Positions 4,155-38,697 of a DNA stretch of 38,917 bases are shown here, one piece after another. A model generated the notes under the pieces. The model had not been told where the DNA came from and searched no databases. It saw only the letters and a list, made by a program, of their open reading frames with translations. Numbering within the stretch: position 1 is the stretch's first letter; each line of letters starts with the position of its first letter. Made by a program: the position numbers and the translations under genes. The stretch comes from a virus. The DNA lies in IMG/VR virus record IMGVR_UViG_3300046822_000034, positions 1 to 38,917 of that record. One strand, given 5' to 3'.

Positions 4155-5807
4155 TTAGCGGGCTCCGTATTTCTTCAAAAGGGAATCAATCTGGCTATTG
4201 CTGCCTGCACCCTGCGGAGGTGCAATAGCGCCGCCCGCTGCCGAACGCATCGCCTGCTCAACCACTGCACGGTTCCGTGCCTTCTGGGCGATAACTTCCG
4301 GAGAATCCCCAAGCACGGGGAAGTAGTTCTTGTACTCGTCGTCCGCTTCCTTGACGCCGATTGCAGCACCGGATTCCTTACGCAGGTTGGCGCGGATCCA
4401 GTTCATGGCAGCCTGCTGGTACTGCTGACCCTTCGCAGTGGTGGCCGCGCGGCCAATGGGAGCAATGGCACCGCCAACCAGCGGGATGTTGTCGATGCCA
4501 GCGCCAACACGATCACGTAGATTGTTGGGGTCATATCCAGCATCGGTGAGGGCATTCAGCTCCTGCGTAGAATTCACCATGCGCTGGTAGAAGCCAGCCG
4601 CATTGCGCTCGCCCTCAGTGGTCTTGCCAGCCGGGATGTACGTCGTAGTGCCATCCCCGTTGTCGATGACCTGACCAGCCCCACCGGCCGGAGTGTCACG
4701 CGGCTTGTTAACGATCTGAATCTGCCCGGTCGGCCCAACCTGTGCCACGGTGCCCTGCGGTAGGCCGATGGCCGCCACGTCCTGCGCCGAAAGGGTGCGA
4801 TAGCTCTCTCGCTGTGAATCAGCCTTGGGAGGACGGCGGCCAATCTGCGGGGTGCCCTGCCCGCCCTGAGTGCGGCCCAGCACCTTCGGGACATAGGCGC
4901 GGGTCTCTGCCGGAGCATTGGCAAGCACCGCGTCCACGTTGCCGCCGTGCGTCTGCATAGCGCGGTCCACGTTGCCCGGACCCCAGTTGTATGCGGCCAG
5001 AGCCAAGCGCGGGTCGCCGTACTGGCGGAGCATTGCCTGCAGGTAATCCTTCCCCACGCGCTCCATCTCAGCCGGAGACTGATCGCGAGCAGCCGTCACG
5101 CCATAGCCCGGATCGCGGAGAGTGCCGGGCATCGTCTGCATGGTGCCCATGGCGCCTTTGGCCGACACGGCGGCCGGATTCCCACCGGACTCAACCTGCA
5201 TCACGGCCTGCTCAAGGCCCGGCAGCATATCTGCGCCCAGCAAGCCAGCCCTCGGGGTCTGCGGCTGCGTTGCATCCGGCGCCAGAAGGCCGCCGCTGAT
5301 TGGGTTGCCCTGCAGATCACGAATCTCGCGGGTGTCCTTGTTAACCCACACGTCCAGCAGACCACCGGGCGTACCGTCGCCAACCTGCTGGAGCTGCCAA
5401 TCGTTTTGCGGCTTCGGTGTCACATCCTTGCGGAATGCTGCTGCGCCAACCGGGTCAACGGCGGCCCACTTGCCCCACGCCTCCTGATTCAGGCTGCCAT
5501 CTGCGTTGAGCGCGCCCTGCTGTGCGGCCTCAATGGCTGCGTTACGCTCCATGCCCTGACGGGTGCGCCCGAGAATCTCGTTCTTGTACCGAGCGTTCTC
5601 GGCATCGGCCACGCCCTGGTTCGCGGACAAGAGGCCACTCTGGATGCCGTTAGCCAGTGCTCCGCCGAAGCTGCCACCCGATGGCTTCAGTAGCCCGAGG
5701 CCAAGGGACAGGAGGCTCTGACGACCAATAGCGTTCCGGTCGGCCTCGCCAAGGCTGTTTGCCTGCGGGATGAACCGGCCAAGCAATCCGCCATAGTTGA
5801 TCGCCAT
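4155..5807 (-). CDS. Ejection protein with SLT lytic transglycosylase domain
   Basis: 550 residues. Residues about 197-312 form a soluble lytic transglycosylase (goose-lysozyme-like) domain: catalytic Glu206 in VESGGNP, GAMGTMQTMPGT at 218-229 and AYNWGPGN at 272-279. The enzyme would cut peptidoglycan locally during genome entry. The N-terminal region is Gly/Leu/Gln-rich and the C-terminal 230 residues are helical. The ATG at 5807 shares one base with the upstream stop (TGATG) and has GGGGGA eight bases upstream, so I prefer it to the GTG five codons earlier. It occupies the P22 gp20 position, between the gp7- and gp16-like genes. Confidence 0.88.
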   Translation of the reverse strand: MAINYGGLLGRFIPQANSLGEADRNAIGRQSLLSLGLGLLKPSGGSFGGALANGIQSGLLSANQGVADAENARYKNEILGRTRQGMERNAAIEAAQQGALNADGSLNQEAWGKWAAVDPVGAAAFRKDVTPKPQNDWQLQQVGDGTPGGLLDVWVNKDTREIRDLQGNPISGGLLAPDATQPQTPRAGLLGADMLPGLEQAVMQVESGGNPAAVSAKGAMGTMQTMPGTLRDPGYGVTAARDQSPAEMERVGKDYLQAMLRQYGDPRLALAAYNWGPGNVDRAMQTHGGNVDAVLANAPAETRAYVPKVLGRTQGGQGTPQIGRRPPKADSQRESYRTLSAQDVAAIGLPQGTVAQVGPTGQIQIVNKPRDTPAGGAGQVIDNGDGTTTYIPAGKTTEGERNAAGFYQRMVNSTQELNALTDAGYDPNNLRDRVGAGIDNIPLVGGAIAPIGRAATTAKGQQYQQAAMNWIRANLRKESGAAIGVKEADDEYKNYFPVLGDSPEVIAQKARNRAVVEQAMRSAAGGAIAPPQGAGSNSQIDSLLKKYGAR

Positions 5808-6703
5808 CAGCCATTCCCCCACAGAGAGGCCAGGATTGCCGCATAACCGGCTGCGTTCTGGCCTGCACTGGTGTAGTTCGGGTTGTCCCCGGTTGTCGTG
5901 TTGGAGCTGGAGCCGCCACGGATCGAGTTAAGCGCGTTGGTCAGGATGGCATTGTTGTTCTTGTCCCAGTCTCGCCACTCGTTGAACTGGGCGCGGTCAT
6001 CATCGATGGCCTGCTGGTTCAGTAGCTGCTGCATCGAGCCCTGCTTAAGGAGCTGGTTGGAGTCGTTGTAGCCCATCTGCTGCAGCTGCGGCAGGAAGCC
6101 CAAAGCCGACTGGCGGAACTGCTGATCCTGGTTGTAGAGCGAGGAATTGCGGTTTAGCGCCGACTCGGCGAGCTGTGCCTGACGGTCATAGTCCGCATTG
6201 CGGTACTGGTAGTTCGTGTCGCTCAGCTGCTGTGCGAGGTTCTGCTGGCCCTGCGATAGCGCCTGCTGCATGGCCGAGCCGCCGTAGGCGCCGCCAGAGT
6301 TGAATTGAGCCAGTTGCGTCGGCAGCGTCGAGTCCGTGTAGCGCTGGGTGATGTCCCGGCCAGCTGCATCGATCATGTTGCCCAAGTACGGGTTTTCGCC
6401 CGCGTACTGGTTCTGCTGGCCGATGTACGGGTTGGCGTACTGGCCGCCGATCACGCGGTTAACGTAGTCGTTGGCGTTGGCCTGCGTCTGACCGTTCTGC
6501 GCGGCGTTCGCACGGTTCATCGTGAACGCGTCTTCCTGGTCCTGCGAGAACCCCGCGACTGTGGGGCCGCCATAGCCCACGTAGGGGCGCTGCGACAGCT
6601 TCCCAGCCTGGTTCAGCGCCTGCTGGAAGTAGCCGGTCGCCCAGGCTGGCGGGTCGTTCGTGCTGACAGTGGTGTTGGTGGTTTTCTTCTTACCGGAACT
6701 CAT
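5807..6703 (-). CDS. Gln/Asn-rich ejection or internal virion protein, P22 gp7-position
   Basis: 298 residues, very rich in Gln, Asn, Ala and Tyr. A short basic N-terminus (SSGKKKTT) is followed by a Trp/Phe-containing segment (PPAWATGYFQQALNQ) and long stretches likely to be helical. It is first of three putative ejection genes and its start overlaps the GNAT-like gene stop (ATGA). No catalytic motif is seen. The composition is typical of proteins packed in the capsid and ejected with DNA. Function is inferred from position and composition. Confidence 0.65.
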   Translation of the reverse strand: MSSGKKKTTNTTVSTNDPPAWATGYFQQALNQAGKLSQRPYVGYGGPTVAGFSQDQEDAFTMNRANAAQNGQTQANANDYVNRVIGGQYANPYIGQQNQYAGENPYLGNMIDAAGRDITQRYTDSTLPTQLAQFNSGGAYGGSAMQQALSQGQQNLAQQLSDTNYQYRNADYDRQAQLAESALNRNSSLYNQDQQFRQSALGFLPQLQQMGYNDSNQLLKQGSMQQLLNQQAIDDDRAQFNEWRDWDKNNNAILTNALNSIRGGSSSNTTTGDNPNYTSAGQNAAGYAAILASLWGNG

Positions 6704-17047: not shown

Positions 17048-17698
17048 TTAGTTGATGTTCAAACCACGTCGATTGATCTTTTCCAGGAACGAGCCGCGAG
17101 CGCCGCCCGGACCCATGCCACTGCTTGGGCTGAAGCTGCCTGTCTGCATTGCTCGATTGGCACCAGCGCTACCGCCACGCCCTGCGCCACCACTGGCAGC
17201 GTTTGCGCCTGGCGAGTAGTTGCCGAAGTTGAGGTTCGATCCCTGCCCCTCTTGGATGCCCTGGCCCCACGTGCTTGCCGGCGACCAGTTGCCGGGAACG
17301 CTTGCCATCCCATTACCAAACTGGGAGTTGCCGAAGTTGTTAACCGATCCCTGACCCTGCAGGTGGCCGGCCCATGTGCCGCCTGGTGACTGGGATGGAA
17401 AGCCCAGGTTCTGCGCGGATGGGAGCGTGATCGCGCTTGGCACACCAGCAACAGGAGCGGCCACAGGTGCCTGAACTGGATTTCCAGTGTGGTCAATCAC
17501 ATATCCGGCCCCTCTACGGACGAGTGCGCCCGCTGCAGGGCCGAAGAATGCACTCGCGCCCAGCCCAGCAATAGCTCCAGCGATGCCTTTACCAATGTTG
17601 CTGTACTGCCCGGTATCCCTGTTGTAGTTCGTGCCCGGCAGGATGCGGTCAACCACGCGCCCGAAGAAGTTCCGAGCGCCGCTAGGCTTATCAGCCAT
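17048..17698 (-). CDS. Gly/Asn-rich putative virion protein
   Basis: 216 residues. The N-terminus holds RNFFGRVVDRILPGTNYNRDTGQYSNIGKGIAGAIAGLGASAFFGPAAGALV, with a glycine-zipper hydrophobic segment at about 34-62 that could associate with membranes. The rest is low-complexity Gly/Asn/Ser/Gln (FGNSQFGNG, NFGNYSPGANAASGGAGRGG). Composition resembles internal or ejection proteins, although it lies upstream of the terminase genes. Good ribosome site (GAGGGA). No catalytic motif. Confidence 0.6.
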   Translation of the reverse strand: MADKPSGARNFFGRVVDRILPGTNYNRDTGQYSNIGKGIAGAIAGLGASAFFGPAAGALVRRGAGYVIDHTGNPVQAPVAAPVAGVPSAITLPSAQNLGFPSQSPGGTWAGHLQGQGSVNNFGNSQFGNGMASVPGNWSPASTWGQGIQEGQGSNLNFGNYSPGANAASGGAGRGGSAGANRAMQTGSFSPSSGMGPGGARGSFLEKINRRGLNIN

Positions 17699-17707
17699 CT
17701 CTATCCC

Positions 17708-17908
17708 TCAGTTGAGCCGCGCTGTGTCGGCCTGCTTGTCGCAAATGTCTGCCGCCTGCCGCAGCAACTGGGCTACCGCGCTCATCGGGACCTTGCGGAA
17801 GATGACGTGCACGTTGCCCTCATCGACCAGGCGCAAGGCCACGCCAAATGAACCGCCGTCTTGGCACTCGTCCACGAACTCGACGCCCTTGGCGTCCATC
17901 TTGTTCAT
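17708..17908 (-). CDS. Hypothetical small protein next to the spanin genes
   Basis: 66 residues, soluble, beta-strand then helix (GSFGVALRLVDEGNVHVIFRKVPMSAVAQLLRQAADICDKQ). The start overlaps the o-spanin stop by four bases (ATGA). An in-frame ATG at the fourth codon is an alternative start. Family not recognised. Confidence 0.55.
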   Translation of the reverse strand: MNKMDAKGVEFVDECQDGGSFGVALRLVDEGNVHVIFRKVPMSAVAQLLRQAADICDKQADTARLN

Positions 17909-18198
17909 CGGTGCTTGTCCAGACAGTCGGCGGTAGCCGCTCTCTTATTCTCGCTATCGGTGAACGCCCACACAGCCCCCACGTACAGGGCGCGCCAGAT
18001 GCGCCAGTCCGTCGTGTTCTCAGGGGGCGGGGGCTCCATCGCAGGACTTCTCTCCCCGCACCCGGCAGGCGGCACGTAGGGCTGCTTTGTGTGCCTGCTC
18101 AGCAACCCGCATCCCGCCATCGTTGGCAGGAGGAGCAGCAGGGTTAGCGCCCTCACGTAATGACCGGTCGTCGGCCTTGGCTCGTTTCTGGACTTCAT
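17905..18198 (-). CDS. o-spanin (Rz1-like outer-membrane lipoprotein)
   Basis: 97 residues from the ATG at 18198. A type II signal peptide (VRALTLLLLLPTMAGC) with lipobox ending at Cys30 is followed by a periplasmic segment with a proline run (MEPPPPEN). It lies in a different frame from the i-spanin gene and shares 179 nt with it, the classical overlapping Rz/Rz1 arrangement. With Rz it would span the periplasm and fuse the inner and outer membranes in the final step of lysis of a Gram-negative host. Confidence 0.8.
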   Translation of the reverse strand: MKSRNEPRPTTGHYVRALTLLLLLPTMAGCGLLSRHTKQPYVPPAGCGERSPAMEPPPPENTTDWRIWRALYVGAVWAFTDSENKRAATADCLDKHR

Positions 18199-18385
18199 AG
18201 CCTTCAATCCCGATCCGTTCCTGCGTGCCACGGCTGATATCGTTTGACTTGGCCGTCTCCTTGGCCTGCTGGCGCAGCTCCCGGTTGTCCTCTCTGGCTT
18301 CCGAACCACCGCGCCAATACAAGAGACCGGCAATAGTCATAAGGGCGATAAATAGCCACACATGACGATTCAGTAACCATGGCAT
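18020..18385 (-). CDS. i-spanin (Rz-like inner-membrane protein)
   Basis: 121 residues. One N-terminal transmembrane helix (VWLFIALMTIAGLLYW, residues 9-24) is followed by a charged helical periplasmic domain (EAREDNRELRQQAKETAKSND...). Its 3' half encodes the lipoprotein Rz1 in another frame. Size and topology match lambda Rz-type spanins. It is twelve bp downstream of the small membrane gene. Confidence 0.8.
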   Translation of the reverse strand: MPWLLNRHVWLFIALMTIAGLLYWRGGSEAREDNRELRQQAKETAKSNDISRGTQERIGIEGYEVQKRAKADDRSLREGANPAAPPANDGGMRVAEQAHKAALRAACRVRGEKSCDGAPAP

Positions 18386-18397
18386 GTACGCACCTAT

Positions 18398-18544
18398 CTA
18401 CGAGGTAACGGCGTGAAGTAGAGGCTTAGCCAATTCCCAAACCAGCGGAACCAACCACAGAGCAAGTCCCACTATTGCCGCACCAACTAGGCCGGCGAAG
18501 ATCAAGCAAGCGGTGAATGCACCATCAAGCCCAGATCCGTACAT
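18398..18544 (-). CDS. 48-residue membrane protein in the lysis cassette
   Basis: MYGSGLDGAFTACLIFAGLVGAAIVGLALWLVPLVWELAKPLLHAVTS. One long hydrophobic segment (about 10-36) could form one helix or a tight pair. An AAGGAG ribosome site is well placed. It sits directly before the spanin genes. It could be a second holin, an antiholin or a lysis regulator; nothing in the sequence decides between these. Confidence 0.65.
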   Translation of the reverse strand: MYGSGLDGAFTACLIFAGLVGAAIVGLALWLVPLVWELAKPLLHAVTS

Positions 18545-18556
18545 ATCAAGACTCCT

Positions 18557-18850
18557 TTAGATGGCCACTCGACTCAACAACTCAGTAATGCGGCGATGGG
18601 CGGCGTAGACGCGAGCCCCCTGCTCATGCACTGCCTGGGCAACGAGACTGCGAGCCGGTTCAGGCGCGTCTCCCTTACATGTCGATTCGTTCAAGCAAGG
18701 GACAAGAATCGGAGCAAGCGCCTGTTCCAGCCTCGAAATTTCATAGTCAAGCTGGGCAAGCTGTGAATCAGTACAGACAATCCGGTCTCGCACACTGTCT
18801 TTCTCAAATTCAGCAGGCTTGGCATCGCCGCCAGTAGACTGAAGAGCCAT
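18557..18850 (-). CDS. Hypothetical helical protein of the lysis cassette
   Basis: 97 residues, mainly helical (DSQLAQLDYEISRLEQALAPILVPCLNES...ARSLVAQAVHEQGARVYAAHRRITELLSRV). Three cysteines are present (26, 52, 58). There is no signal peptide or membrane segment. A strong ribosome site (AAAGGAGAA) precedes the ATG. Twelve bp separate it from both neighbours. No family recognised. Confidence 0.55.
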   Translation of the reverse strand: MALQSTGGDAKPAEFEKDSVRDRIVCTDSQLAQLDYEISRLEQALAPILVPCLNESTCKGDAPEPARSLVAQAVHEQGARVYAAHRRITELLSRVAI

Positions 18851-18862
18851 AGAGTTCTCCTT

Positions 18863-19417
18863 TCAGATTTTTGCCCACTGTTTGGGGCTGAATGCCAGCG
18901 CGTAGGAAATGCAGAAGTGAACGATCGGTCCTGCGTAGACCGCGCTCACCACGCTCACCAGCTGGCCACTTTCATTGAACACACCCGCGCCTGAGTCTCC
19001 CCGGCCGCAGGTGATGTCCAGAACCATTGCGCCGCCGTACCACCCAGCCATGTAGCCGTAGCGGTACAGCTGATCGAACCCATCAACATTGCCCACGAAC
19101 GAAATGGCGTCACCCTTCTTCGGGGTCGGGCCACGCTGAGCCCACTCGGGGAAGCGCTTGTCCACCCACAACAGGGCATGGTCTCGAGCGTCGGTCTCGA
19201 TGCGCCGAACCGTCACCCGCTTGTCGCCGATGTAAACAACCGTGTCCGCATCGCCAACGCAGTGCTTGGCGGTCAGCAGCACATCCTTTGCGATGGCTGT
19301 TGCGCTACATAGGCCGCCGTCCTGCGTCCCGATGCGGTAGGTGTACCGCTCAACTGACGGGCGCGCTCCTGCGCAACCAGCCAGTGAGGCCAGTAAAAGG
19401 ACGGCCAGGATGCGCAT
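18863..19417 (-). CDS. Trypsin-like serine protease lipoprotein
   Basis: 184 residues. A type II signal peptide (RILAVLLLASLAGC) gives lipidation at Cys15. The S1/trypsin catalytic triad is complete in order and spacing: His52 in LLTAKHC, Asp79 in ARDHALLWV and Ser142 in CGRGDSGAGVF. The GDSG motif and a Cys37/Cys53 pair across the His loop fit a chymotrypsin fold of small size. It would act in the periplasm, anchored to a membrane. The ATG shares one base with the endolysin stop codon (TAATG), so it is translated with the lysis genes. Possible roles are cleavage of envelope proteins during lysis, processing of a lysis protein, or exclusion of other phages. Confidence 0.8.
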   Translation of the reverse strand: MRILAVLLLASLAGCAGARPSVERYTYRIGTQDGGLCSATAIAKDVLLTAKHCVGDADTVVYIGDKRVTVRRIETDARDHALLWVDKRFPEWAQRGPTPKKGDAISFVGNVDGFDQLYRYGYMAGWYGGAMVLDITCGRGDSGAGVFNESGQLVSVVSAVYAGPIVHFCISYALAFSPKQWAKI

Positions 19418-19875
19418 TACTTGCCCTCGCAGAGGTTCCGTTCAGCAGCTCGACGGTTAACCAGTCCCTTGACTCGCTTGCCTCCTGCGTAAACCCATTT
19501 GTCCAACTCGACGCACCATGCAGGGCCGCGCTCACCACTATTGATGCGGCGGACCAGAGTCGACTTGCAGGCGGCGCCCACGCCGACGTTGTAGGTCCAG
19601 CTCAGGATCGCAGCCCATTCCCGCTCGCGCATCGGCTGCTTGATGCACTGGCTAATCCCGGCAAGATAGCTGCCAAGCCGACTGTTCAGCTGTTCGGCGC
19701 ATTCCTGTTCGGTGTAGTGCTTCTTGGTTGGGCGGCCGGTATCCCCGTAGCAGTAGGTGGCAACGCCAACCATGTCTACGTACGGAGTGGGCGAATAGCC
19801 CTCCCACGGCTTGACCAGCGCCAGCGTCAGCGCCAGCACGCCAGCAGCCGAGCCGCCGATGATCTTGCCCTTCAT
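19417..19875 (-). CDS. SAR endolysin, GH24 phage lysozyme
   Basis: 152 residues from the ATG at 19875. An N-terminal weakly hydrophobic segment (KIIGGSAAGVLALTLALVK) after a short basic start is typical of a signal-arrest-release helix. The catalytic triad follows exactly: Glu25 in KPWEGY, Asp34 in YVDMVG and Thr40 in ATYCYG, with the E-8-D-5-T spacing of T4/P21-type lysozymes. A cysteine (Cys42) beside the active site and others downstream may take part in disulphide-controlled activation. The start overlaps the holin stop by four bases. Confidence 0.88.
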   Translation of the reverse strand: MKGKIIGGSAAGVLALTLALVKPWEGYSPTPYVDMVGVATYCYGDTGRPTKKHYTEQECAEQLNSRLGSYLAGISQCIKQPMREREWAAILSWTYNVGVGAACKSTLVRRINSGERGPAWCVELDKWVYAGGKRVKGLVNRRAAERNLCEGK

Positions 19876-20063
19876 TTCGCCCGAGCCTCTTTGCGCCACT
19901 TCCAGATGAGGTATCCGATCTGTGCGGCCAGGTAGATCAGGGTTGCCGCGCCTACGAGGAATGTCATGTCGATGGCCCCGCCCACTGACGCAGCCACGAC
20001 CGCCAGCGGCGGTGCACTCTTGGCCGCAGCTGCGCCAGCCGCGTTAACCATCTCTTGATTCAC
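19872..20063 (-). CDS. Holin (putative)
   Basis: 63 residues starting at GTG (20063; AGGGGA upstream), with an alternative ATG four codons later. Two hydrophobic segments (about 19-32 and 33-53: PPLAVVAASVGGAID and FLVGAATLIYLAAQIGYLIW) and a basic C-terminus (KWRKEARAK) fit a small two-helix holin. Because the endolysin has a SAR helix, a pinholin that depolarises the membrane would suffice. It is coupled to the endolysin by an ATGA overlap. Confidence 0.75.
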   Translation of the reverse strand: MNQEMVNAAGAAAAKSAPPLAVVAASVGGAIDMTFLVGAATLIYLAAQIGYLIWKWRKEARAK

Positions 20064-20365: not shown

Positions 20366-20797
20366 TTACTTCTTCCGCTTCTTCGGAAGCTTGTAGACCT
20401 GGATCGGCTCGCTTGAGCCCGGATCCGTCTTGCATGTGGCGCGCACCGCGTCCTTCGCACTGAACCCATGGTGCATCAGCGCCATAGCCGCCGCGCTACC
20501 GCAGCCAATCGCTGCCAGGTCGTCCATAATCGGAAACTCCGGGAATCGCTCACATGCAATCCATACCGTTCCGTCCGGCTTGAGGATGACCAGCTCTGCG
20601 TCTTCAAACTCCGGCGCATCTCCCTGTCCGCCGCCGAGCAGCCAAGCAATCGCCGCGTAGGCTTTCGACCACGATCCGCAGCCGCCTACACAGCCGCCGC
20701 CCGGCAGCTCAAAAATCTTCTGTGCCCGGTGGATCGTCCCCGACGACAGCTGGGTGTCCGCCGCCATGACCCCATCCTTGACTGCGATGGTCGTCAT
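20366..20797 (-). CDS. Proteasome/HslV-like Ntn-hydrolase
   Basis: 143 residues. The N-terminus MTTIAVKDGVMAADTQLSS...HRAQKIFEL follows the pattern of proteasome beta and HslV subunits: a nucleophilic Thr after the initiator Met, Asp14 and Lys27, then IFELPGGGCVGGCGSW. Removal of Met would expose Thr2. A C-terminal basic tail (PKKRKK) ends the protein. No ATPase partner is encoded nearby, so it may act alone or be a structural or dead homologue. It is coupled by ATGA to the phosphoesterase gene. The fold is recognised; the substrate is unknown. Confidence 0.7.
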   Translation of the reverse strand: MTTIAVKDGVMAADTQLSSGTIHRAQKIFELPGGGCVGGCGSWSKAYAAIAWLLGGGQGDAPEFEDAELVILKPDGTVWIACERFPEFPIMDDLAAIGCGSAAAMALMHHGFSAKDAVRATCKTDPGSSEPIQVYKLPKKRKK

Positions 20798-22383: not shown

Positions 22384-22911
22384 TTATGCGACTTGAAGTG
22401 GAGCGCGCAACTCCACTGTCAGCCGATATTTATTGTAGGCAGCCACCTTCGCTTTTTTCTGAGCAGACTCCCAGGTCTCTTGCTTCTTCCTAACGGCAAT
22501 GCGGGTGTCTTCGTCGGTCACGTCCTTTAGGTCGATTCCGCCAATTGCATCCATGACCTTCTCGATCAGTGCGTGCAGAGAATCCTTTGCCTCTTGTCCC
22601 CACTCCAGCCGAAACCATTCGCCAGTGACCGAGTGATCCTTCAATGCCTCATGCATTGCTACCTCGGCGCTCCTGGCGGTCCGGCGACTACTGCAGCGGA
22701 ACGCGATCACCCTACGAATTGGGATGGGGCATCCGGTTTGGACATGCCTCGCCCGCTTACCTGGGAACTCACTGATTCCAACCTTGATGTACATCGGGCC
22801 TTCGCCGTCCTTGGCGAACATGACATAGAGGCAGCACTCTTTCGGGTCAAGCTCTCGCATGATCCTTGCCGCTTCCACCTGCTCAAGGCGGCTCTCGCTG
22901 AAAATGAACAT
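22384..22911 (-). CDS. GIY-YIG-superfamily protein (T5orf172/MUG113 type)
   Basis: 175 residues. Residues about 27-102 match the T5orf172 branch of the GIY-YIG fold: LYVMFAK, YIKVGIS (41-47), GKRARHVQTGCP (51-62), AEVAMHEALK (Glu83, His87) and GEWFRL (97-102). The C-terminal 70 residues are helical and charged. It may cut or bind DNA; free-standing members are common in phages and often of unknown role. It shares one base with the Q-like gene stop codon (TGATG). Confidence 0.75.
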   Translation of the reverse strand: MFIFSESRLEQVEAARIMRELDPKECCLYVMFAKDGEGPMYIKVGISEFPGKRARHVQTGCPIPIRRVIAFRCSSRRTARSAEVAMHEALKDHSVTGEWFRLEWGQEAKDSLHALIEKVMDAIGGIDLKDVTDEDTRIAVRKKQETWESAQKKAKVAAYNKYRLTVELRAPLQVA

Positions 22912-23600
22912 CAGGCGGCCTCCCTCCTCAGTGCCGCCTCAAGGGCGCGCCCAGCTTCCGCCTCAGCATCCCTCATCTTCACAAACAGCCACTCGTACAC
23001 CCGCCTCCAACGCTTAGGGAAATCGGAAGGATCAACCTTGATGGCGGCGGCTCGCCATGCATCGAGGATCTTTGCTTCCCCGCTGCCATCGCAGTGCTTG
23101 CAAACAGAATTCTCTCCGCGATCCTTCCCGGTCCCATTGCAGGAAGTGCAGCGGTGCCCATGGATTTCACTGACAATGGCCCTGGCGATCAGCGGGAGCC
23201 GCTCAGCGGTATTGTTCGGCCAGCATTCACCACGAATCACCGCCAGCCGGGACCGGCATCGGTCAACCTCTGCTCGGGCTTCGGCACTCACCGAGTTACC
23301 ACCCCACAGAATCGCGGCTTCGGCCAACTGAAGGTCAAGGCTAGCCTGCGACACACGCCGGGACTGCCGCGTCAGCTCGGGACCAACGGTAGCCATTACA
23401 GAATTCCGCAGCCCATTGGCCCGGATCGCAGCACCCCACGGCCACCAGCAAGCCTCAAGCACCTCGCGCCCCAACCCTGCAGGTACAAATGCCAGGGCCG
23501 CCGCAATGTCCTGATTGGTCAATTCAGCAATTCCACCGTGGCCGGTATCGAATTTGACCGTTGTCGGGTTCAACCTCGCCAGCTTCTCACGAACGTCCAT
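22911..23600 (-). CDS. Q-type late antiterminator candidate with zinc finger
   Basis: 229 residues. A DnaJ-like zinc finger, CTSCNGTGK...CKHCDGSG with Cys151, Cys154, Cys167 and Cys170, is embedded in helical sequence, as in the phage antitermination Q family. It is the last regulator-like gene before the lysis and head genes on the same strand and is followed by a terminator in tR' position. If correct, it would bind near the late promoter and load onto RNA polymerase. The zinc finger alone is not decisive. Confidence 0.55.
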   Translation of the reverse strand: MDVREKLARLNPTTVKFDTGHGGIAELTNQDIAAALAFVPAGLGREVLEACWWPWGAAIRANGLRNSVMATVGPELTRQSRRVSQASLDLQLAEAAILWGGNSVSAEARAEVDRCRSRLAVIRGECWPNNTAERLPLIARAIVSEIHGHRCTSCNGTGKDRGENSVCKHCDGSGEAKILDAWRAAAIKVDPSDFPKRWRRVYEWLFVKMRDAEAEAGRALEAALRREAA

Positions 23601-37590: not shown

Positions 37591-37930
37591 GAAGTTGATG
37601 ACCCTGGCGCAGGCGGCTGAACACTGTGCCTGCCATCCTCGGACCCTTCGCCGAGCCATCGACATTGGCGAACTAGCCGCCTGCCGGCTGGGGCAGGGGA
37701 AAAAGTCAGATCGAATCCATCCCGTTGACCTGGCCGTGTGGCTGGGCAAGTGCAAGGTAAAGACCCAATGCCAGTCACCAAGCGTGCCAATGGCCACTAT
37801 CAAGTTACAGTCGGACACGGTGGAAGAACGCATCGCAAGACTTCTCGACTCTGGTCGTTCAAGGACGCGAAAGAGTACGAACGCAAGTACCTCACCGCGC
37901 TCAAGGACACTGCGGCTGGTCGAGAACTAG
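37577..37930 (+). CDS. xis: Excisionase-like DNA-binding protein (MerR/HTH_17 type)
   Basis: 117 residues from the ATG at 37577 (GAGGAGG six bases ahead). Residues about 8-62 (MTLAQAAEHCACHPRTLRRAIDIGELAACRLGQGKKSDRIHPVDLAVWLG) form the winged-helix excisionase motif. The last 54 codons run through the integrase gene in another frame and are Ser/Arg/Thr-rich, so they may be recent or non-functional. Immediately before int, it is the expected directionality factor that favours excision by bending attP/attR DNA. Confidence 0.7.
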   Translation: MGAAEKLMTLAQAAEHCACHPRTLRRAIDIGELAACRLGQGKKSDRIHPVDLAVWLGKCKVKTQCQSPSVPMATIKLQSDTVEERIARLLDSGRSRTRKSTNASTSPRSRTLRLVEN

Positions 37931-38697
37931 AGCGACTGATCTCCGAAGGGGTGGAGAAGTTCCTTACGGATCACGTCCCGCGCTTACAGTCAAAGACCAA
38001 GACGATGGCCCATATCCGTGCGCTGATGCCCTACTTATCAGGCAGAAAGATGAGGGAGGTCGCCCAGGTCTGGGCAGAGATCAAGGCGGCGGAGATTGGG
38101 AAGGCTCCGGCTACAGTGAACCACAAGGGCCGCATCCTACGGCAGATCAGTAGGATGGCGTGGCGCGAGTGGGGATGGTTGGAACGGCCAGCCGCGATTG
38201 GGCTGCTGCCGGAGAAGCCGCGTGAGACGTTCCTGACCACCGAACAGGTGGAGGCATTGGCGCGGGCTTGCCCCAACGCTGCGGCAGGGGACTACGTGCG
38301 GCTGGCGGCCTATACGGGGATTCGGCGCGGCCACCTGTTGCGCCTGACAGCCCACGACGTGCGTGGCGGGTTCATCCACCTAGATCGAACCAGCAAGACG
38401 CGGACGCTACAGTTGGTGCCGCTGCATCCAAGGGTCACAGGGATCGCGGAGCGGCTACCGCTGGGGGCCTCAGACGATCAAGTGCGGGATTCGTGGTCCA
38501 AGGCGCGCGAGGCGTGCGGCTTGCAACACGTCCGCTGGCACGATCTGAGGCACACCTGTGCGTCGTGGTTGGTGCAGGCCGGTGTACCCCTGCACACGGT
38601 GTCGGAGGTGCTTGGGCATAGCTCCATGGCGATGACGCGGCGCTATGCTCACCTGTCGCCGGAACACCTGTCAGACGCTATCCGAAAGATGGCCTGA
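37768..38697 (+). CDS. int: Tyrosine integrase
   Basis: 309 residues from the ATG at 37768 (an in-frame ATG 30 bases earlier is possible). An N-terminal arm-binding region and core-binding helical domain precede the catalytic domain: Arg186 in YTGIRRGHL, Lys210 in TSKTRTL, His258-x-x-Arg261-His262 in WHDLRHTCASWL, His284 in LGHSSMAMTRRYAHL and nucleophile Tyr293. It recombines attP with the 3' end of a host tRNA-Leu gene. It reads into attP, stopping 93 bp before the core. Confidence 0.92.
   Translation: MPVTKRANGHYQVTVGHGGRTHRKTSRLWSFKDAKEYERKYLTALKDTAAGRELERLISEGVEKFLTDHVPRLQSKTKTMAHIRALMPYLSGRKMREVAQVWAEIKAAEIGKAPATVNHKGRILRQISRMAWREWGWLERPAAIGLLPEKPRETFLTTEQVEALARACPNAAAGDYVRLAAYTGIRRGHLLRLTAHDVRGGFIHLDRTSKTRTLQLVPLHPRVTGIAERLPLGASDDQVRDSWSKAREACGLQHVRWHDLRHTCASWLVQAGVPLHTVSEVLGHSSMAMTRRYAHLSPEHLSDAIRKMA

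Follow-up and report, generated by a model that had tools for sequence, protein, structure and literature searches.

The window, which is the whole 38,917-nucleotide stretch of viral DNA that was analysed, carries a late operon on its minus strand, in which an exonuclease-like gene, an HslV-like peptidase gene, a holin gene, an endolysin gene and a protease gene are followed by two small open reading frames (ORFs) of 97 and 48 codons, an i-spanin/o-spanin pair, and then packaging and head genes. The holin is small (63 aa; 19872..20063, minus strand; phrog_920 holin, 1.1e-10), and the endolysin is of the lysozyme type (19417..19899, minus strand; phrog_7, E=2.9e-49; Pfam Phage_lysozyme, 2.8e-36). 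Endolysin translation would start at a GTG at 19899 or at an ATG at 19875, the latter giving a protein that begins MKGKIIGGSAAG; its N-terminal hydrophobic segment, as read from the sequence only, appears SAR-like. The endolysin stop codon and the start codon of the protease gene (18863..19417, minus strand) overlap as TAATG, and a GAGGG just upstream is a plausible ribosome site for the protease.

Between the protease and the spanins of the window lie a soluble, coiled-coil-like ORF of 97 aa (18557..18850, minus strand), which had no family match in Pfam or PHROGs and among the relatives occurs only in two phages (L004 and L005), and a 48-aa ORF with a single membrane segment (18398..18544, minus strand), which is also present in L004. 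Both are missing from L002, L003 and L026. The i-spanin (121 aa; 18020..18385, minus strand) is Rz-like, having an N-terminal membrane segment and a periplasmic helix, and its sequence is too divergent to give a match in PHROGs or Pfam. The o-spanin, an Rz1-like lipoprotein with the lipobox MAGC (17905..18198, minus strand), was found by an overlap detector; it overlaps the i-spanin in another frame, and this arrangement is kept in L002-L005 and L026.

A Q-like antiterminator gene upstream (22911..23600, minus strand; phrog_127, 1.2e-15) is probably the switch of the protease's late operon. We found no promoter-like site between positions 17500 and 21000, and the only two terminator-like sites there are both on the strand opposite to the protease. 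Because an integrase gene is present (37738-38697; best identity below 40% among the matches listed), we regard the phage as temperate. Just upstream of the lysis cassette is the gene for the HslV-like N-terminal-nucleophile peptidase (20366-20797, minus strand; phrog_1040, 9.6e-31), which is common to L003-L005 and L026 and constitutes a second peptidase beside the lysis genes. Elsewhere in the window, a 555-aa virion or tail protein (4155-5822, minus strand; phrog_2013 and phrog_669) contains a lytic transglycosylase-like domain and probably serves entry.

The protease and its predicted structure

The protease gene encodes 184 aa with matches to the Pfam families Trypsin_2 (E=3.8e-11; 44.4 bits against a curated cut-off of 27.6) and Trypsin (E=3.1e-7). 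Its N-terminus, MRILAVLLLASLAGC, is a lipoprotein signal with a positive n-region, a hydrophobic h-region and a lipobox cysteine at position 15 (LAGC15). Residue +2 after this cysteine is Ala (not Asp), which fits outer-membrane sorting by the E. coli rule, a rule that may not be that of the host. The catalytic residues H52, D79 and S142 occur in triad order within TAxHC and GDSG motifs; in a 38-sequence alignment reaching down to ~20% identity, H52 and S142 show no variation and D79 has a conservation of 90% or more. Judging from chymotrypsin-type spacing, disulfides probably join C37 to C53 and C137 to C169. The gene is under purifying selection (dN/dS 0.12-0.17 for the window against L002-L005, which are 79-91% identical) and its GC3 (0.74) is like that of the endolysin gene (0.75), and the ORF is therefore not due to chance.

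AlphaFold2 modelling with the 38-sequence alignment gave a pLDDT of 88.2 and a pTM of 0.83; with the five close relatives alone the pLDDT was 39, and a usable model was obtained only after remote relatives were added. The best PDB matches of the model were V8 protease, DegP and DegS (E ~1e-9; 1.7e-9), pointing to a predicted chymotrypsin-like (double beta-barrel) fold. Both Pfam and the model indicate that the 184 aa constitute the protease domain alone, with the C-terminal PDZ domain of HtrA/DegP-DegS type absent. As a globular enzyme encoded beside a separate Rz/Rz1 pair, the protease does not fall within the spanin class.

A preliminary description of this DNA had proposed an intact His-Asp-Ser S1 protease with a lipoprotein signal, translated directly after the endolysin and placed before the spanin pair. 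Pfam, the alignment, the model and the LAGC15 lipobox bear out the first of these proposals, and the TAATG overlap, with GAGGG upstream, is real. The gene order also stands; immediate adjacency to the spanins does not, as the 97-aa and 48-aa ORFs intervene.

Conservation among close relatives

The close family has six members, comprising the window and five IMG/VR phages with identities down to 51%. Four of these relatives (L002-L005) were found through the protease itself, at 79-91% identity, and the fifth, L026, was reached through its i-spanin (48% identical) and was then found to carry the protease (51%). The triad and the lipobox are kept in 6/6 members, and all six proteases have endolysin/holin genes on one side and the spanin pair on the other, with a spanin coming directly after the protease in L002, L003 and L026.

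The genes upstream of the protease are of two kinds. The window, L004 and L026 have the phrog_7 lysozyme, and L003 and L005, as well as, by sequence, the partial L002, have a different, non-SAR-like module composed of a phrog_3108 protein and a membrane/coil ORF. PHROGs lists phrog_3108 as of unknown function; by its position, this protein would be the endolysin of the L003/L005-type phages. In L003, the phrog_3108 protein (L003:5083-5556) and the membrane/coiled-coil ORF (5559-5852) stand where the holin-lysozyme pair would be, and are probably an unrecognised endolysin and a holin-like or spanin-like partner. The protease keeps its place before the spanins whichever of the two unrelated endolysin modules stands upstream, and we therefore place its link with the spanin step and not with SAR endolysins, the association that had been suggested earlier. 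Large terminases of different types lie beside the conserved lysis region in L002 (L002:3371-4642; 423 aa) and L003 (L003:8452-9780; 442 aa), which shows that modules have been exchanged at the other end of the cassette too.

The L005 copy (L005:6001-6555) has GDSDAG in place of GDSGAG beside the nucleophile, a substitution that may weaken or alter activity in that one phage. No trypsin-like gene occurs in L044, which is more distantly related through its spanins, and the protease is therefore dispensable there. When the protease was searched by tblastn against 50,697 phage genomes, a single match was obtained, in a Rhizobium phage (31%), and the same search against plasmids gave no match. The sole match in genome contigs (L006) was discarded as a false positive, its frame reading as a TRAP-type solute-binding protein.

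A remote protease family beside lysis genes

The window protease matches the profile of phrog_9683 over residues 21-165 (E=4.5e-12). To gather a remote family without regard to lysis genes, we used as the query five aligned phage proteases, one of KZY1 and four of Rhizobium/Sinorhizobium phages. The family obtained comprises 41 loci (L046-L086), whose proteases nearly all carry an export signal or a membrane segment at the N-terminus. PHROGs assigns members of this set to phrog_9683 (L059, 2.4e-52), a "protease" in its category "other". Lipoboxes occur in the proteases of L059, L061, L065, L066, L080, L083 and L085.

At 31/41 loci, a peptidoglycan hydrolase gene precedes the protease on the same strand by no more than 5 kb, and at 25 of these by no more than about 1.7 kb. 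After clustering at 60% identity, every member has such a gene upstream in 16 of the 20 evaluable lineages, against an expectation of roughly 10-20% for lineages under random placement in genomes of such size; the corresponding binomial probability (3e-13 to 1e-8) is approximate, given the shared descent of lineages and the fragmentary state of many contigs. The automatic spanin detector, which missed most remote-family loci, some with clear lysozymes among them, placed an overlapping i/o-spanin pair just upstream of the protease at 9/41 loci, downstream at 0/41, and at either minus-strand control position in 0/46. The order in L068 is holin, SAR lysozyme, Rz, Rz1, a coil-membrane ORF and then the protease, and this order recurs in L066, whose protease is a lipoprotein; the o-spanin stop and the protease start overlap in both L074 and L079. 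The ORF between spanins and protease, an XhlA/hemolysin-like coil-plus-membrane protein, was seen at L068:1764-2024, L061:4563-4934 and L077:4639-4899. Two exceptions are the virulent Rhizobium phage phiM9, whose protease is beside head genes and away from the lysis genes, and KZY1, whose protease is distant from the annotated lysis genes.

Some further S1 proteases were set apart as different. That of L039 (L039:2828-3493) is membrane-anchored, DegP-like and encoded between the portal and major capsid genes, and those of L087-L098 have no export signal and have DnaJ-type neighbours. A 308-aa trypsin-like protease in L038 (L038:3881-4807), 31% identical to that of the window, has a signal peptide and C-terminal membrane segments and is followed by a 258-aa membrane coiled-coil ORF; the neighbours in L038 may be lysis genes too.

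The link between the protease and lysis genes is thus well supported. An intact fold and triad, a lipobox, a position in the cassette and purifying selection coincide with recurrence beside lysis genes in two remote families. The proposal in the preliminary description that the protease is a lysis-module part is strengthened by the 6/6 cassette position and by the independently sampled remote family; only a minority of homologues are unlinked to lysis genes. Such a protease is not unique, as S1 phage proteases already form phrog_9683. As a whole, the earlier interpretation is partly supported.

Proposed role and alternative explanations

On balance, we lean towards the view that the protease is a late, outer-membrane-anchored periplasmic enzyme that assists, as an optional accessory, in the final disruption of the envelope. 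The following account of its activity, its place at the outer membrane, the timing, the substrate and the consequence for lysis is inferred. Expression would be late, with the protease and the endolysin made together by translational coupling. The product would be exported and then lipidated on Cys15, and the Ala at +2 would probably sort it to the inner face of the outer membrane, leaving the stand-alone S1 domain facing the periplasm. There, at the last step of lysis, the one that depends on spanins, it would cleave proteins of the periplasm or of the outer membrane, of which the most plausible are those that tie the outer membrane to the peptidoglycan or that crowd the periplasm. The outer membrane would then give way, releasing progeny faster or more completely. 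Because trypsin frees Braun lipoprotein from sacculi, an established bench practice, tether cutting is plausible for hosts with Lpp. Against a lysis role stand (i) the absence of such a protease from L044, (ii) the unlinked phiM9 and KZY1, and (iii) the GDSDAG motif read in L005.

We think it unlikely that the protease instead acts in superinfection exclusion or receptor shedding, degrading a phage receptor or an exposed envelope protein, late or on debris, such that progeny are not re-adsorbed or competitors are excluded. The lipoprotein anchor and late timing would fit, and there is a precedent in T5 Llp, a lipoprotein by which the phage blocks its own receptor (PMC10269795); however, Llp works by binding and not by proteolysis, barrel receptors would be poorly reached from a periplasm-facing anchor, and the protease is among lysis genes, translationally coupled and without a promoter-like site of its own.

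Processing or control of lysis proteins, in which the protease would trim or activate a spanin, the holin, the endolysin or a host endolysin inhibitor, seems to us distinctly unlikely. Spanins are its constant neighbours in the window family, as well as in L074 and L079, which would suit a spanin substrate, but the spanins of most phages need no protease, and L044 has a related spanin pair without one. Endolysin and holin types vary among family members, and neither is therefore a fixed target; of the earlier suggestion that a lysis factor is activated, the part concerning the SAR endolysin has for this reason become unlikely.

Alternatively, the gene could be cargo for lysogenic conversion: the prophage would express an envelope protease that benefits the lysogen and whose gene resides in the lysis region. 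Cassette neighbours at large, lipoprotein genes near the lysis genes included, can be cargo, as lambda bor is, which counts both for this explanation and against a lysis role, and the presence of an integrase marks the phage as temperate. Nevertheless, we hold cargo to be improbable: the start of the gene overlaps its neighbour inside a late operon, no promoter-like or terminator-like site lies beside it on its own strand, and its position is conserved down to 51% identity. That the protease is a chance hitch-hiker in the cassette with no constant function, as its presence in few sequenced phages and the altered motif of one member (L005) might suggest, is highly improbable and is disfavoured by the purifying selection (dN/dS 0.12-0.17), by a triad intact at 51% identity, and by the linkage counts, the linkage recurring in independent lineages.

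Returning to an accessory role in envelope disruption, we tentatively postulate, at rather less than even chances, a generalisation: that lysis by phages of Gram-negative hosts has a fourth enzymatic component beyond holin, endolysin and spanin, widespread but optional. This would be an S1 "lysis protease", anchored in the envelope, which removes protein tethers so that the outer membrane can rupture and which was recruited beside lysis genes in many lineages, on either side of the spanins. Of the steps of phage lysis, disruption of the outer membrane is the one least understood; it is ascribed only to spanins, or else to cationic peptides of the disruptin type. If the generalisation is true, host envelope proteins would be a further barrier that some phages digest, with a protease kept while endolysins are swapped and found beside lysis genes in about twenty lineages. 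It would offer a hypothesis on the function of a family that PHROGs at present places under "other", and the protease could suggest an enzyme that aids endolysins against Gram-negative cells.

Comparison with known systems

Like the window protease, phrog_9683 (Rhizobium phage 16-3 p036-like) has the S1 fold, the triad and an N-terminal export signal, often with a lipobox and usually with lysis genes close by. The window protease is a divergent branch relative to that family (about 20-27% identity), being shorter, having extra cysteines, and preceding the spanins, whereas the phrog_9683 proteases follow them. DegS and DegP (HtrA, S1C) and V8 (S1B) share the predicted chymotrypsin-like fold, and DegS and DegP are periplasmic; in contrast to these enzymes, the window protease has no PDZ domain, has a lipoprotein anchor and is encoded by a phage late gene. 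Among the envelope proteins of lambda, Rz/Rz1 and Bor are likewise late or linked to the cassette, and two of them (Rz1 and Bor) are lipoproteins, but they include no protease; in the lysogen, Bor is expressed in its own right.

In the largely open-access journal literature searched, there was no prior description of an envelope S1 protease as a part of a lysis cassette with spanins or Rz1, and the words "serine" and "trypsin" are absent from the text of a 2025 survey of viral lytic proteins. Passages of a study of Caulobacter describe LypABC, trypsin-like serine peptidases that are required for the phage-like lysis of gene transfer agents, the LypC serine being essential (PMC13236601). Unlike the window protease, LypABC is a multidomain, CARD-NLR-like host system outside a phage lysis cassette, for which those passages report no envelope signal (PMC13236601); as a host system of several domains, it offers no more than a parallel in concept. 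Phage S1 proteases are already known and catalogued in PHROGs, where they are not assigned to lysis; what is new is that the phrog_9683 family, gathered by protease sequence alone, also adjoins lysis genes.
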